A stretch of 50,832 nt of DNA from the NCBI GenBank assembly GCA_020848545.1, contig JADLHZ010000106.1:1-50832 (forward strand), written 5' to 3'. A program made the position numbers and the translations under genes. The stretch is from Deltaproteobacteria bacterium (GTDB lineage: Bacteria > Myxococcota > JADLHZ01). The notes below the pieces were generated by a model. That model did no database searches, was not told the DNA's origin, and saw nothing but the letters and a program-made list of their open reading frames with translations. Of this stretch, positions 8,119-50,832 are shown one piece after another; the first letter of the stretch is position 1; the number at the start of each line of letters is the position of its first letter.

Positions 8119-8136
8119 GGAGTGTTCCTAGCGTAC

Positions 8137-8225
8137 GGAGAGCGAGGGATTCGAACCCTCGATACGGCTTTTGACCGTATACACGATTTCCAATCGCGCT
8201 CCTTCAACCACTCGGACAGCTCTCC
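8137..8225 (-). tRNA. tRNA-Ser(GGA)
   Basis: On the minus strand the sequence folds as a type II tRNA of 89 nt. The acceptor stem is GGAGAGC/GCTCTCC, the anticodon stem CGCGA/TCGTG surrounds the loop TTGGAAA (anticodon GGA, reading UCC/UCU), the long variable arm is ATACGG/CCGTAT, and the T arm is CGAGG-GTTCGAA-CCTCG. CCA is not encoded. It lies between the second tRNA-Ser gene and argS. Confidence 0.95.
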
Positions 8226-8242
8226 ATAAGGAATGAAATGGC

Positions 8243-8329
8243 GGAGAGCGAGGGATTCGAACCCCCGATACCCTTGCGGGTATGCCTGATTTCGAATCAG
8301 GTGCCTTCAACCAACTCGGCCAGCTCTCC
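8243..8329 (-). tRNA. tRNA-Ser(CGA)
   Basis: An 87-nt type II tRNA on the minus strand. The acceptor is GGAGAGC/GCTCTCC, the anticodon stem CCTGA/TCAGG surrounds the loop TTCGAAA (anticodon CGA, reading UCG), the variable arm is ATACCC-GCAA-GGGTAT, and it has a standard T arm. CCA is not encoded. It is the first of two serine tRNAs, 17 nt apart, with nearly identical acceptor and T arms, so they probably arose by duplication. Confidence 0.95.
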
Positions 8330-24501: not shown

Positions 24502-26484
24502 CTATAGTTCGAGCTGCAGCTCCTTGAGTTTCTTGAGACGGTCGCGGATCTCTGCGGCCTTCTCGAACTCGAGGTTCTCCGCCGCCGCCATCATCTGCTT
24601 CCTGAGGCCCTCGATGAGCTTCGGCAGATTTCCCTCGTGCGCCGCTTCGAGATCCTCGGCGAGCACCTTGGCGATCGCTTCTTCCTCTTTGCGATGCGTG
24701 CGGATCTCCATGATCTTCTTTTGGATCGTCTTCGGCGTGATGCCGTGAGCCGTGTTGTGCTCGACCTGCTTCTCGCGCCGCCGGTCGGTCTCGCTCATCG
24801 CTGCTTTGATCGAGTCGGTGACGGTGTCGGCGTAAAGGATGACGCGCCCCGAGGCGTTTCGCGCGGCCCGGCCGATCGTTTGCACGAGCGAGCTCGCGGA
24901 GCGCAGGAAGCCCTCTTTGTCGGCGTCCATGATCGTGACGAGCGACACCTCCGGGATGTCGAGGCCTTCGCGCAGGAGGTTGATGCCGACGAGCACGTCG
25001 TACTCGCCGAGGCGAAGCGATCGAATCAGCTCGATGCGCTCGAGCGTGTCGATGTCCGAGTGCATGTAGCGCACGCGAATGCCGGCTTCGGCGTAGTACT
25101 CGGTGAGGTCTTCAGCCATGCGCTTCGTCAGCGTCGTGACGAGCACCCGCTCCTTCTTGGCGACGACGGTGCGGATTTCCGCCATGCAGTCATCGACTTG
25201 GTTCTTCGCCGGTCGAATCTCGACGCCGGGATCGATGAGCCCGGTCGGCCGCACGATCTGCTCCACGATGACTCCCTTGCTGCGCTCGAGCTCGACCTTG
25301 CCGGGGGTGGCGCTCACGTAGATCACTTGCTTCGTGAGCGCGTCGAACTCCTCGGCCTTCAGCGGACGGTTGTCGAGCGCGCTCGGCAAGCGAAAACCGA
25401 AGTCGACGAGCGTCTCCTTGCGCGAGCGATCGCCTTTGTACATGGATCCTATCTGGTGGACGGTCTGGTGGCTCTCGTCGATCACCACGAGATAGTTCTT
25501 CGGGAAGTAGTCGATCAGCGTCGGCGGCGCGAGGCCGGGAGCGCGACCGGTGAGGTGGCGCGAGTAGTTCTCGATCCCGGCGCAGCGGCCGGTCGTCTCC
25601 ATCATCTCGAGATCGAAGAGCGTGCGCTGTTCCAAGCGCTGCGCTTCGACCAGGCGGTTGGCGCGCTTGAGCTCTTGCAGCCGCAGCGCGAGCTCATCAC
25701 GGATGCCGGTGAGCGAGGCGCGCCGGCGCTCGGGCGTCACCAGGTAGTGCGTCGACGGGTAGATCGCGACCTTCTCCATCTTGCCGATCGCTTTTCCACG
25801 CAAGGGATCGATCTCGGTCAGCTTCTCGATCTCATCGCCGAACATCTCGATGCGGACGGCCTTCGCTTCTTCGTATGCCGGGAACACCTCGACGGTGTCG
25901 CCGCGGACGCGGAAGGTGCCGCGGTGAAAGTCGTGGTCGTTGCGCTCGTATTGGATGTCGACGAGGCGGCGCAAAAGATCGTCGCGTGGGATCGACTGGC
26001 CGACTTCGAGCTGCAGCAGCATGTCGTAGTACGCTTCGGCGCTGCCGAGGCCGTAGATGCACGAGACGCTGGCGACGATGATGACGTCGTTCCGTTCGAG
26101 CAAGGAGCGCGTCGCCGAGTGGCGCATGCGATCGATCTCGTCGTTGATGAGCGCATCCTTCTCTATGTACGTGTCGCTCGACGGCACGTACGCCTCGGGC
26201 TGGTAGTAGTCGTAGTACGAGACGAAGTACTCGACGGCGTTGTCGGGGAACAATTCTTTGAACTCGCCATACAATTGCGCGGCGAGCGTCTTGTTGTGCG
26301 CGATGATCAGCGCCGGCCGCTGCACGCGCGCGATCACGTTGGCGATGGTAAATGTTTTTCCGCTGCCGGTGACGCCGAGCAGCGTCTGAAATTTGTCGCC
26401 GCGCACGACGCCTTTGCTCAGCTCTTCGATCGCGAGCGGCTGATCTCCGCTCGGCGTCATCGTGTTCGTGATGCGAAAGTTCAT
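24502..26484 (-). CDS. uvrB: UvrABC system protein B (excision repair helicase)
   Basis: A 660-residue UvrB with Walker A GVTGSGKT, the damage-probing beta-hairpin [24 protein letters not shown]-type box VIDESHQ, motif VI region QTIGRAARN and a C-terminal UVR motif that binds UvrC/UvrA. Homology begins at [16 protein letters not shown], so I place the start at ATG 26484 (AGG upstream) rather than 36 nt further up. It is monocistronic, and its stop is 2 nt from the end of the gene at 23040. It is divergent to the strong promoter at 26514. Confidence 0.96.
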
Positions 26485-26513
26485 ACCTAAAGAAAATCCC
26501 ATATTAAGATTTG

Positions 26514-26541
26514 TTGACATCGAAGCTGACGTTTCTATACT
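26514..26541 (+). promoter_or_regulatory. Strong sigma-70 promoter for the lysine-rich mini-gene
   Basis: TTGACA (26514-26519) is a perfect -35, and TATACT (26536-26541) a near-perfect -10, 16 bp apart. It is the best promoter in the window. The start point should be near 26548, giving a leader of about 33 nt before the ATG at 26581. Confidence 0.8.
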
Positions 26542-26567
26542 TACCCTTAGGCCGTTTCACTCACCAT

Positions 26568-26573
26568 GGAGGA
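26568..26573 (+). promoter_or_regulatory. Ribosome-binding site of the mini-gene
   Basis: GGAGGA lies 7 nt before ATG 26581, ideal spacing. An in-frame-unrelated ATG at 26574 directly abuts it and is therefore not the start. This site is what makes the 19-codon frame credible as a gene. Confidence 0.8.
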
Positions 26574-26580
26574 ATGAACG

Positions 26581-26640
26581 ATGGCAACGAAGAAGAAAGC
26601 TGCGAAGAAGAAGAAAAAAGCCGCCAAGAAGAAGAAGTAG
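26581..26640 (+). CDS. 19-residue lysine-rich peptide
   Basis: The frame encodes a peptide made of only Met, Ala, Thr and Lys: MATKKKAAKKKKKAAKKKK (12 Lys, 5 Ala). It resembles the basic tails of histone H1-like or HU-like nucleoid proteins, without any globular part. It has its own strong promoter, an ideal ribosome-binding site and a perfect intrinsic terminator within 190 bp, so it is expressed as a complete unit. The charge (+12) predicts binding to nucleic acid or acidic polymers; that is inference. It lies between uvrB and the SRP RNA gene. Most gene callers would skip it because of its length. Confidence 0.7.
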   Translation: MATKKKAAKKKKKAAKKKK

Positions 26641-26675
26641 TTCGATCGATCGGCGTGAGCCGAAACAGAAAAAAA

Positions 26676-26702
26676 GGCAGCAGTCGTGCTGCCTTTTTTT
26701 TT
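26676..26702 (+). terminator. Intrinsic terminator of the mini-gene
   Basis: GGCAGCA (26676-26682), loop GTCG, TGCTGCC (26687-26693), then nine T (26694-26702). Seven A residues precede the stem (26669-26675), so it could also stop transcription in the other direction. Confidence 0.92.
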
Positions 26703-26770: not shown

Positions 26771-26864
26771 CATCGCTCAGTTGCGCGACGGATTCGCGCG
26801 AACCCCGCCAGGCCCGAGAGGGAGCAACGGTAGTGATTGTTTTCGTGTGCGCAACTGAGCACTG
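26771..26864 (+). ncRNA. ffs: Signal recognition particle RNA (4.5S type)
   Basis: The apex CCAGGCCCGAGAGGGAGCA (around 26808-26825) is the universal domain IV hairpin that binds Ffh, with a GAGA tetraloop in place of the common GGAA. A perfect 12-bp closing stem is formed by GCTCAGTTGCGC (26775-26786) and GCGCAACTGAGC (26849-26860). TTGACA at 26740-26745 is a possible -35, with a poor -10. The position just upstream of dnaX is the same as for the SRP RNA genes of several other bacteria. The ends are approximate; at about 90 nt it is on the short side for a 4.5S RNA. Confidence 0.88.
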
Positions 26865-26891
26865 CTGTTTCCTCTCTGCCGTGAGCGCTCC

Positions 26892-28622
26892 ATGTACGTC
26901 GTCCTCGCGCGCAAATATCGCCCGCAGAACCTGAGCGAGGTCATCGGCCAAGATGCGGTCGTGCAGACGCTCAGGAACGCGATCAACCTGCGCCGTATCC
27001 ACCACTCGTATTTGTTCACAGGCGCCCGCGGCGTCGGCAAGACGAGCATCGCCCGCATCCTGGCGAAGTCGCTGAACTGCGAGAAGGGCCCGACCGACTC
27101 GCCGTGCGGCGTCTGCGCGGCGTGCGTGGAGATCACGAAGTCGAGCTCGCCGGACGTGCTCGAGATCGACGGCGCGTCGAACACCTCGGTCGACGACGTG
27201 CGCGATCTGCGAGAGACCGTGAAGTACCTGCCGAGCAAGGGCAAGTACAAGATCTACATCATCGACGAAGTGCACATGCTGTCGACGAACGCCTTCAACG
27301 CGCTCTTGAAGACGCTCGAAGAGCCGCCGGAGCACGTGGTCTTCGTCTTCGCCACCACCGAGCCGCACAAGATCCCGATCACCATCTTGTCGCGTTGCCA
27401 GCGCTTCGACTTTCGCCGCGTCCCGCAAGCCGTCCTCGGCGAGCGCCTGCGCTTCGTCGCCGAGCAAGAGCAAGTGGCCATCGAGCCTGCGGCGCTGCTC
27501 GCCATCGCCAAGGCGGCCGACGGCAGCGTGCGCGACTCGATGTCGCTCTTCGATCAAGCGATCGCGTTTTGCGGCAACAAGATCACTCTGGCACAGACGC
27601 AGCAAGCGTTGGGGCTCCTCGATCGCGAGAAGGTGCGCGCCATGCTCACCGCGATCGTCACGAAGGATCGCAGCAAAGTCAGCGCGCTCGTACAAGAAGC
27701 GCACGGCGCCGGCGCCGATCTGTCGGAGATCGCCGAGCGCTTGGTGGAAGCCGTCCGCGACTTGACGCTCGCCAAGCTGACGAACGGGCAAGCCGAGACG
27801 CTCAGCTCTTTGATGCCCGAGGAGCTGCAAGCATTGCAGGACTCGGCGGGCGCCTTTTCGCCGGCGGACCTGCACCGCTTGTTCAACGCGGTGGTGAAGA
27901 CGGCGGAAGACACCGCGAAGAGCGCGTTCGCGCATTTGACCTTCGAAATGGGGCTGCTCAGAGCTTGCGACTTGGAGCCGGTGGCGGCGCTCGCGGATCT
28001 CGTCAACGCGTTGCGGACCGGGGAGGCGCCGAGCGGTCCGCCGGGCGGCGGTGGTGGATCGGGACCGGCGCCGCGTGGGCCCGTGCAAAAGACGATCGTG
28101 TCGGTGCCGGCGGCGGGGTTCGTCGCGAGCGCGCCGGTCGCAGCGGTCGCACCAGCGCCAGTTTCGGCGACGGCGACGTCAACGCGCGGGAAGAAACCCG
28201 AGACATACAAAGAGCTCGCGGCCGCGGTGCTCGCCGTGAAGCCGATCTTGGGCGCGGCGCTCGAGAACGTGGCGTGCGAGAAGCTCACGGAGCACGAGCT
28301 CAGCGTCCGCGTGCCGCCAGGGAACGAAGTGTTCGGCGAGATGCTGCGCGACAAAGCGAACGTGACGACCTTGCTCGACATCCTCGAGCAGATCATCGGC
28401 CGCCGCATCGCGTTCGAGGTCGTCGCCGGAGCACCCGCCACAGAGGCGCCGAAGACCATCGCCGACGAACGCCGCCAAGAACGGCAGTCCGAGGTCAGCG
28501 AGCTGAAGAGCGCTGGCGCCGCGCATCCGGCGGTGAAGAAAGTATTGGAAGTGTTCGGCGGCGAGATCCGCTCGGTGCAAGTGAAGGCCGCGCTCTCCCA
28601 CCCCGCCGACGACTACGATTAG
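26892..28622 (+). CDS. dnaX: DNA polymerase III subunit gamma/tau
   Basis: A 576-residue clamp-loader ATPase. Walker A GARGVGKT is at about 44-51, the zinc module has Cys residues in NCEKGPTDSPCGVCAAC, Walker B/sensor is YIIDEVHML, and the SRC motif is TILSRCQRF. Domain III and a Gly/Pro/Ala linker (about 375-430) follow, and then a tau-type C-terminal domain with KPETYKELAAAVLAVKPILG. I see no A-rich slippery site of the E. coli kind, so only the long form is expected. It starts at ATG 26892 and begins the usual dnaX-ybaB-recR operon. Confidence 0.96.
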   Translation: MYVVLARKYRPQNLSEVIGQDAVVQTLRNAINLRRIHHSYLFTGARGVGKTSIARILAKSLNCEKGPTDSPCGVCAACVEITKSSSPDVLEIDGASNTSVDDVRDLRETVKYLPSKGKYKIYIIDEVHMLSTNAFNALLKTLEEPPEHVVFVFATTEPHKIPITILSRCQRFDFRRVPQAVLGERLRFVAEQEQVAIEPAALLAIAKAADGSVRDSMSLFDQAIAFCGNKITLAQTQQALGLLDREKVRAMLTAIVTKDRSKVSALVQEAHGAGADLSEIAERLVEAVRDLTLAKLTNGQAETLSSLMPEELQALQDSAGAFSPADLHRLFNAVVKTAEDTAKSAFAHLTFEMGLLRACDLEPVAALADLVNALRTGEAPSGPPGGGGGSGPAPRGPVQKTIVSVPAAGFVASAPVAAVAPAPVSATATSTRGKKPETYKELAAAVLAVKPILGAALENVACEKLTEHELSVRVPPGNEVFGEMLRDKANVTTLLDILEQIIGRRIAFEVVAGAPATEAPKTIADERRQERQSEVSELKSAGAAHPAVKKVLEVFGGEIRSVQVKAALSHPADDYD

Positions 28623-50755: not shown

Positions 50756-50832
50756 ATCCGGCAACGTCCTACTCTCCCACACGGCTACCCGTGCAGTACC
50801 ATCGGCGCAGAAGAGCTTAACGGCCGAGTTCG
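50756..50832 (-). rRNA. rrf: 5S rRNA, 3' part (5' end outside the window)
   Basis: On the minus strand the last 77 bases read CGAACTCGGCCGTTAAGC..., GCGCCGATGGTACTGCAC and GAGAGTAGGACGTTGCC, which are conserved 5S rRNA segments (loops B, E and D region). The 5' part lies beyond the right edge, so an rRNA operon continues there on the minus strand. The 3' end is approximate (50756-50758). Confidence 0.9.

Follow-up and report, generated by a model that had tools for sequence, protein, structure and literature searches.

Is a short stretch of DNA in which a promoter, a ribosome-binding site, a lysine-rich reading frame and a terminator directly follow each other a gene for a microprotein, and what could such a product do? 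We analysed this locus in its window (the whole stretch of DNA under study, 50,832 nucleotides; coordinates refer to it) and in genomes of the same phylum, the Myxococcota.

A mini-gene between uvrB and the SRP RNA gene

The following features were assigned to the locus and its surroundings:

24502..26484, minus strand: uvrB, divergent, the conserved neighbour (codon 1 at 26484 placed by homology)
26514..26541, plus strand: sigma-70-like promoter of the mini-gene, TTGACA-16-TATACT (from the sequence; same place and order in seven relatives)
26568..26573, plus strand: Shine-Dalgarno sequence GGAGGA, 7 nt before the ATG at 26581 (GGAGG in 8 of 8 uvrB-type members)
26581..26640, plus strand: ORF for a 19-aa Lys-rich microprotein, MATKKKAAKKKKKAAKKKK (family comparison, chance test)
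26669..26702, plus strand: intrinsic terminator, A7-GGCAGCA-GTCG-TGCTGCC-T9 (sequence, folding, eight-member comparison)
26772..26866, plus strand: SRP RNA (ffs), the next gene downstream, outside the conserved unit (Rfam RF00169, 62.8 bits)
26892..28622, plus strand: dnaX, downstream, outside the conserved unit (ORF; tblastn matches to relatives)

Direct reading bore out, base for base, the layout of promoter, Shine-Dalgarno sequence, frame and hairpin-T9 given in a preliminary description of this DNA. The -35 box TTGACA (26514-26519) and the -10 box TATACT (26536-26541) are separated by a 16-nt spacer and match the consensus at 11 of 12 positions; a promoter scan counted 2 promoter-like sites in 2.5 kb versus 0.3 expected. 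The ORF ends with the stop codon TAG at 26638-26640. Since an in-frame TGA at 26575 precedes the ATG, the frame is not the tail of a longer one. MATKKKAAKKKKKAAKKKK consists of 12 Lys, 5 Ala, 1 Thr and 1 Met and has a charge of +12, so that the peptide has the 19 residues described earlier, while the term "all-basic" is loose, with basic residues at 12 of 19 positions. The terminator hairpin GGCAGCA-GTCG-TGCTGCC (26676-26693) is followed by T9 (26694-26702). Pairing of the A7 and T7 tracts extends its stem to 14 perfect bp, and because of this symmetry the terminator is possibly bidirectional. The number of terminator-like sites in the scan (4 versus 2.6 expected) is by itself within chance; the mini-gene transcript folds more stably than its shuffles (z = -3.0).

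The judgement that the arrangement is too orderly to be chance was upheld for the frame: no other ATG-to-stop frame in the whole window reaches both 15 aa and 50% Lys, and none arose when the window was shuffled 200 times with dinucleotides preserved. Profiles of Pfam and NCBIfam matched the 19-aa peptide to 0 families. When searched against its own genome it returned the self-match alone (E = 0.6), low complexity making protein searches uninformative for a peptide of this size. Another Lys-rich start in the same genome belongs to an unrelated 217-aa protein.

As described before, the SRP RNA gene, confirmed by Rfam, follows the mini-gene at ~70 nt. On the other side the ATG lies 97 nt from codon 1 of uvrB, for which an alternative upstream ATG exists at 26520. 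Elsewhere the window contains a tandem pair of tRNA-Ser genes (GGA, CGA; 8135-8329, minus strand) and a 5S rRNA at 50756-50832 that extends past the window end. A small soluble protein of the same genome, DUF1801-like by eye (L037, about 1160-1579, G000:C79), carries a Lys-rich N-terminal tail, MAKKKVAAKKKVAKKKAPARP, and its start is preceded by a GGAGG site.

Lysine-rich mini-genes divergent from uvrB

All comparison genomes belong to the same phylum as the window's genome and none to the same class, so that no same-class relative was among them for a base-by-base comparison of the 19-aa frame. Of the 195 genomes of the phylum, 185 had a recognizable UvrB; about 100 of these were inspected upstream of the gene. 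Divergent Lys-rich mini-genes were present beside uvrB in seven other genomes from five families (f15, f11, f20, f19, f17):

G017: 24 aa, MVAKKKKATKKKATKKKTTKKKKK
G040: 30 aa, MPTKKKAVKKTATKKAVKKPAAKKKVAKKK
G033: 29 aa, MAAKKKAKKKVTKKAAKKVAKKKVAKKKK
G010: 51 aa
G037: 29 aa
G024: 81 aa
G029: 127 aa

Here the ATG is located 104-294 nt from codon 1 of uvrB. A TTGAC[A/T] promoter with a TAAGAT-type -10 box lies 66-75 nt upstream of the ATG in all seven relatives, a range that includes the window's distance of 70 nt. In 8 of 8 uvrB-type members a G+C hairpin is found 20-31 nt past the stop codon (28 nt in the window). The seven relatives also share a leader end, GGAGGTTGGCAATG, i.e. GGAGGTT(G/C)GCAATG. 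Among the 195 genomes the strict leader pattern GGAGGTTNGCAATG...AARAAR matched these seven loci only, and its reversed control gave zero matches. The window does not carry the shared leader end and has GGAGGAATGAACGATG instead; GGAGGTTGGCAATG is dispensable in the NFACT-linked mini-genes described below. A covariance-type model of the seven leaders gave 26513-26572 as its top match in the window, correctly in register, at a non-significant 5.2 bits (E = 1). The window leader thus resembles the uvrB-type leader weakly, and the mini-gene is placed with the group by position and anatomy: it fits in position, promoter-ATG distance, Shine-Dalgarno sequence, composition and terminator distance. Judged on these features, we regard it as the positional equivalent of the uvrB-type members, sequence homology being unproven.

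A DNA search of relatives with the mini-gene region returned SRP RNA and Lys-rich repeats only, and no Lys-rich unit lay beside uvrB among the 80 loci listed from the UvrB scan, which included few Myxococcota. The proposed tie to ffs-dnaX did not hold up, the neighbour retained in relatives being uvrB. It had been argued that loss of the frame in relatives, with promoter and terminator kept, would point to a small RNA. No such case was encountered: the seven Myxococcota-type genomes keep promoter, GGAGG, Lys-rich frame (24-127 aa) and hairpin.

A wider family in the neighbourhood of NFACT

The phylum was scanned for GGAGG-ATG-Lys3 starts and 15 places were inspected. Most of the families inspected contain short stand-alone Lys-rich genes:

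f13: 25-28 aa
f8: 66-75 aa
f23: 25-36 aa
f14: 49 aa
f4: 47-93 aa

One locus of f4 (L277 1387-1656, G041) encodes an 89-aa protein of nearly perfect AKKKV repeats and is followed by a DsbA-like gene.

In f8, f13 and f23 a gene for NFACT (RqcH type; Pfam) is located downstream of the Lys-rich gene on the same strand. When NFACT was searched for in 30 genomes, a Lys-rich mini-gene was seen upstream of it also in f3, f10, f26, f28, f29 and f31, in the last at ~600 nt from NFACT. NFACT-linked mini-genes therefore occur in at least nine Myxococcota families and encode 21 to about 110 aa (loci L267, L271, L268, L272, L273, L274, L312, L314, L321, L323, L324, L339, L341). They include 21-25-aa versions with a design nearly that of the window's mini-gene. 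Together with the uvrB-linked units, these examples, down to 21 aa, support the earlier view of the locus as a complete mini-gene whose product, a basic peptide, is too small for gene finders.

No NFACT gene above the family cut-off was found in seven uvrB-type genomes. As these keep the mini-gene without it, the mini-gene is independent of NFACT, and which of the two genomic homes it occupies, uvrB or NFACT, probably reflects descent. A shortened NFACT-like gene (G000:C44, L329, about 1463-2350) of ~300 aa with the middle and R domains is present in the window's genome, and no Lys-rich gene is found beside it; this NFACT-like gene directly precedes a gene reading like mutS2. No Lys-rich neighbour of NFACT was found in ten genomes outside the family, mostly of other phyla. 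A strict micro-gene pattern had no match in 42 other genomes, mainly non-Myxococcota, which is a weak negative because the pattern also misses the known G017 member. In the open-access literature we found no publications on this family.

Evidence for translation

The 17 mini-genes of f13 (the family with Anaeromyxobacter-like genomes) contain 21-42 codons and differ in length by whole codons only. Their Lys codons are AAG in 227 of 227 cases. Residues between the Lys blocks swap freely among Ala, Thr, Val, Pro and Gly, and Lys pairs and triplets are retained. The frames are bounded by a retained Shine-Dalgarno sequence (GGAGGGAACA-type) and a hairpin (GCGGCCGCC-TCCG-GGCGGCCGC type), and the +1 frame is interrupted by stop codons in several of them. 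Since DNA rich in Lys codons is open in further frames as well, openness alone proves little. Two 21-aa products, MAAKKKAVKKVAKKKTAKKKK and MAAKKKATKKKATKKKGAKKK, differ little from the window peptide. Pairs of equal length show few substitutions, some of which change amino acids, so that the design is conserved and not the exact sequence. This pattern fits selection for a Lys-block peptide, not an RNA. From this comparison, which strongly supports translation, we consider the window mini-gene to be very probably a translated gene. In several Anaeromyxobacter-like genomes (L342-L346, L357-L359) an inverted repeat, GTCCATTC ... GAATGGAC, is located just 5' of the Shine-Dalgarno sequence; in these f13 leaders it is a possible operator or 5'-UTR hairpin.

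Comparison with known basic proteins

Charge-driven binding goes along with low-complexity Lys/Ala composition, as in histone H1 tails. The window product resembles such tails in this respect; it is bacterial, has 19 aa and no globular domain, and we claim no homology to histone-type tails. Several basic DNA-binding elements and nucleoid proteins are known from Myxococcus in the same phylum (the HMGA-like domain of CarD, CdbA, HU). CarD has a folded RNA-polymerase-binding domain and CdbA is a ribbon-helix-helix protein, neither being a Lys-repeat microprotein.

We further compared the family with Hc2/HctB (Pfam PF07382), the histone H1-like nucleoprotein of Chlamydiales, alongside BpH1 of Bordetella. 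Like Hc2, the family is rich in Lys, Ala, Thr, Val and Pro, has no globular body and varies in length by repeat units. Unlike the window peptide, Hc2 has pentamers, a C-terminal part that is conserved and a length of 165-237 aa. It binds DNA and RNA, and its length varies by repeats with the frame kept (PMC2848022). Membership in HC2 (PF07382 / NF038052, NF038053) was rejected, no profile matching above its curated cut-off: a 75-aa relative from f8 matched PF07382 weakly (E = 1.7e-5, 25.4 bits, cut-off 40 bits), the best relative reached 20.8 bits against NF038053 (cut-off 80), and short family peptides were not recognized by any Pfam or NCBIfam profile.

The C-terminal KPAA domain of AlgP and PhaF of Pseudomonas, which binds DNA and sets the position of polyP or PHA granules, is likewise disordered and Lys/Ala-rich. 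In AlgP this H1-tail-like tail binds DNA and is needed for the spacing of polyP granules (PMC9239181). The tail of AlgP/PhaF is attached to a folded N-terminal domain, whereas the window product has no other domain, and instead of KPAA the family repeats K2-5 blocks with A/T/V pairs between them. The window product is also not an AlgP/PhaF member, having 19 aa, an in-frame stop directly upstream and no Pro. Other assignments were rejected too: a histone fold (bacterial HBb type, a ~60-aa domain) by the size of 19 aa and the lack of a Pfam match, ribosomal protein bTHX/bL36 by the lack of a Pfam sequence match, and a cationic toxin by the absence of toxin-antitoxin anatomy and the retention of a single gene across families.

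Proposed function and alternative explanations

We consider it reasonably probable that the locus is an independently transcribed gene for a disordered, polyanion-binding Lys/Ala microprotein of 19 residues, the shortest observed of a stand-alone Lys-rich family of Myxococcota. The consensus-like promoter would drive steady, probably strong transcription, and the strong ribosome-binding site would lead to translation of a peptide without a folded domain. With a charge of +12 on 19 residues the peptide should be unable to fold, and its Lys blocks could bind DNA, RNA and/or polyphosphate by charge alone, in the manner of the tails of histone H1, Hc2 and AlgP. The terminator would insulate the unit from ffs-dnaX. 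Repeat length is free to vary in steps of whole codons, from 19 to 127 aa, as it should be if charge density is all that counts. Polyanion binding on the nucleoid, on RNA or on polyP is the somewhat favoured main job in our assessment. The earlier image of a histone tail without a body that binds nucleoid or RNA is fair as a description, while nucleic-acid binding itself is what we infer. Layout and frame conservation are observed; the role of an H1-tail-like element would be their functional interpretation.

One alternative is a small RNA defined by promoter and terminator, with the Lys-rich frame incidental. The compact unit of ~160 nt between promoter and terminator has a typical bacterial small-RNA size, and its stable fold would agree with this. 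In relatives, however, the transcribed part ranges from ~150 to 500 nt while start, Shine-Dalgarno sequence, Lys-rich frame and stop stay together, the leader beyond the Shine-Dalgarno sequence is poorly kept, and an RNA needs neither whole-codon length changes nor lysines encoded exclusively by AAG; we consider it very unlikely. Translation of the peptide or of polylysine could also serve as a regulatory device for the neighbour, as a leader peptide or stalling sensor. Lys-codon runs slow ribosomes, and the promoters of uvrB and the mini-gene are adjacent, overlapping within about 100 bp. But a tuned leader peptide would not be expected to range from 19 to 127 codons, and since the mini-gene is divergent from uvrB in the window and the seven relatives and has its own terminator, it cannot be a uvrB leader, which leaves this explanation scarcely credible.

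The microprotein might instead act on the ribosome or translation and not on DNA, for example as a basic peptide bound to ribosomes or RNA, and be linked, now or formerly, to quality control by NFACT/RqcH. Two neighbourhoods speak for such a role: in nine families NFACT follows the mini-gene on the same strand, and in the window the mini-gene is next to SRP RNA and dnaX. Against it stand the seven uvrB-type genomes without NFACT above cut-off, the shortened NFACT-like gene of the window's genome and the ten outside NFACT genomes, all lacking such a neighbour pair, as well as the hairpins often found between mini-gene and NFACT; this appears improbable. A further reading takes the window copy for what erosion has left of a longer H1-like protein, heading for loss; this would be in line with its being the shortest member found and with a leader drifted from the uvrB-type consensus. 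Yet its promoter, Shine-Dalgarno sequence, frame and terminator are all intact, and members of 21-25 aa and nearly the same design are kept in several f13 genera, making erosion quite unlikely.

Going beyond the preferred reading of a polyanion-binding microprotein, body-less Lys microproteins reduced to as little as 19-21 residues might form an unnamed, phylum-wide standing component of myxobacteria, beside NFACT/RqcH in most families and beside uvrB where NFACT is absent. They might act as a protamine-like or ribosome-bound charge buffer selected for dose and charge, not for sequence. We put this forward tentatively and hold it to be rather doubtful.

Implications

Notable are the reduction of an H1-tail-like kind to a tail of 19-30 residues and its reach across the phylum. 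The mini-gene looks like part of a genuine family of histone-tail-like microproteins that has been overlooked (its other members, in Myxococcota, have 21-127 residues) and that probably coats nucleic acids or other polyanions. Because the window's microprotein is below the usual gene-finder size and is cut up by trypsin, it would escape both annotation and standard proteomics. If it is translated, it would rank with the smallest conserved proteins of bacteria and might be the smallest that resembles a histone tail; it would consist of the charged tail alone, yet its gene has every signal expected for good expression. The family can be tested directly, since cultivable Myxococcaceae and Anaeromyxobacter-like species have members, and its freely varying length supplies a ready-made graded set for determining how much charge suffices for binding to nucleoid, RNA or polyphosphate.
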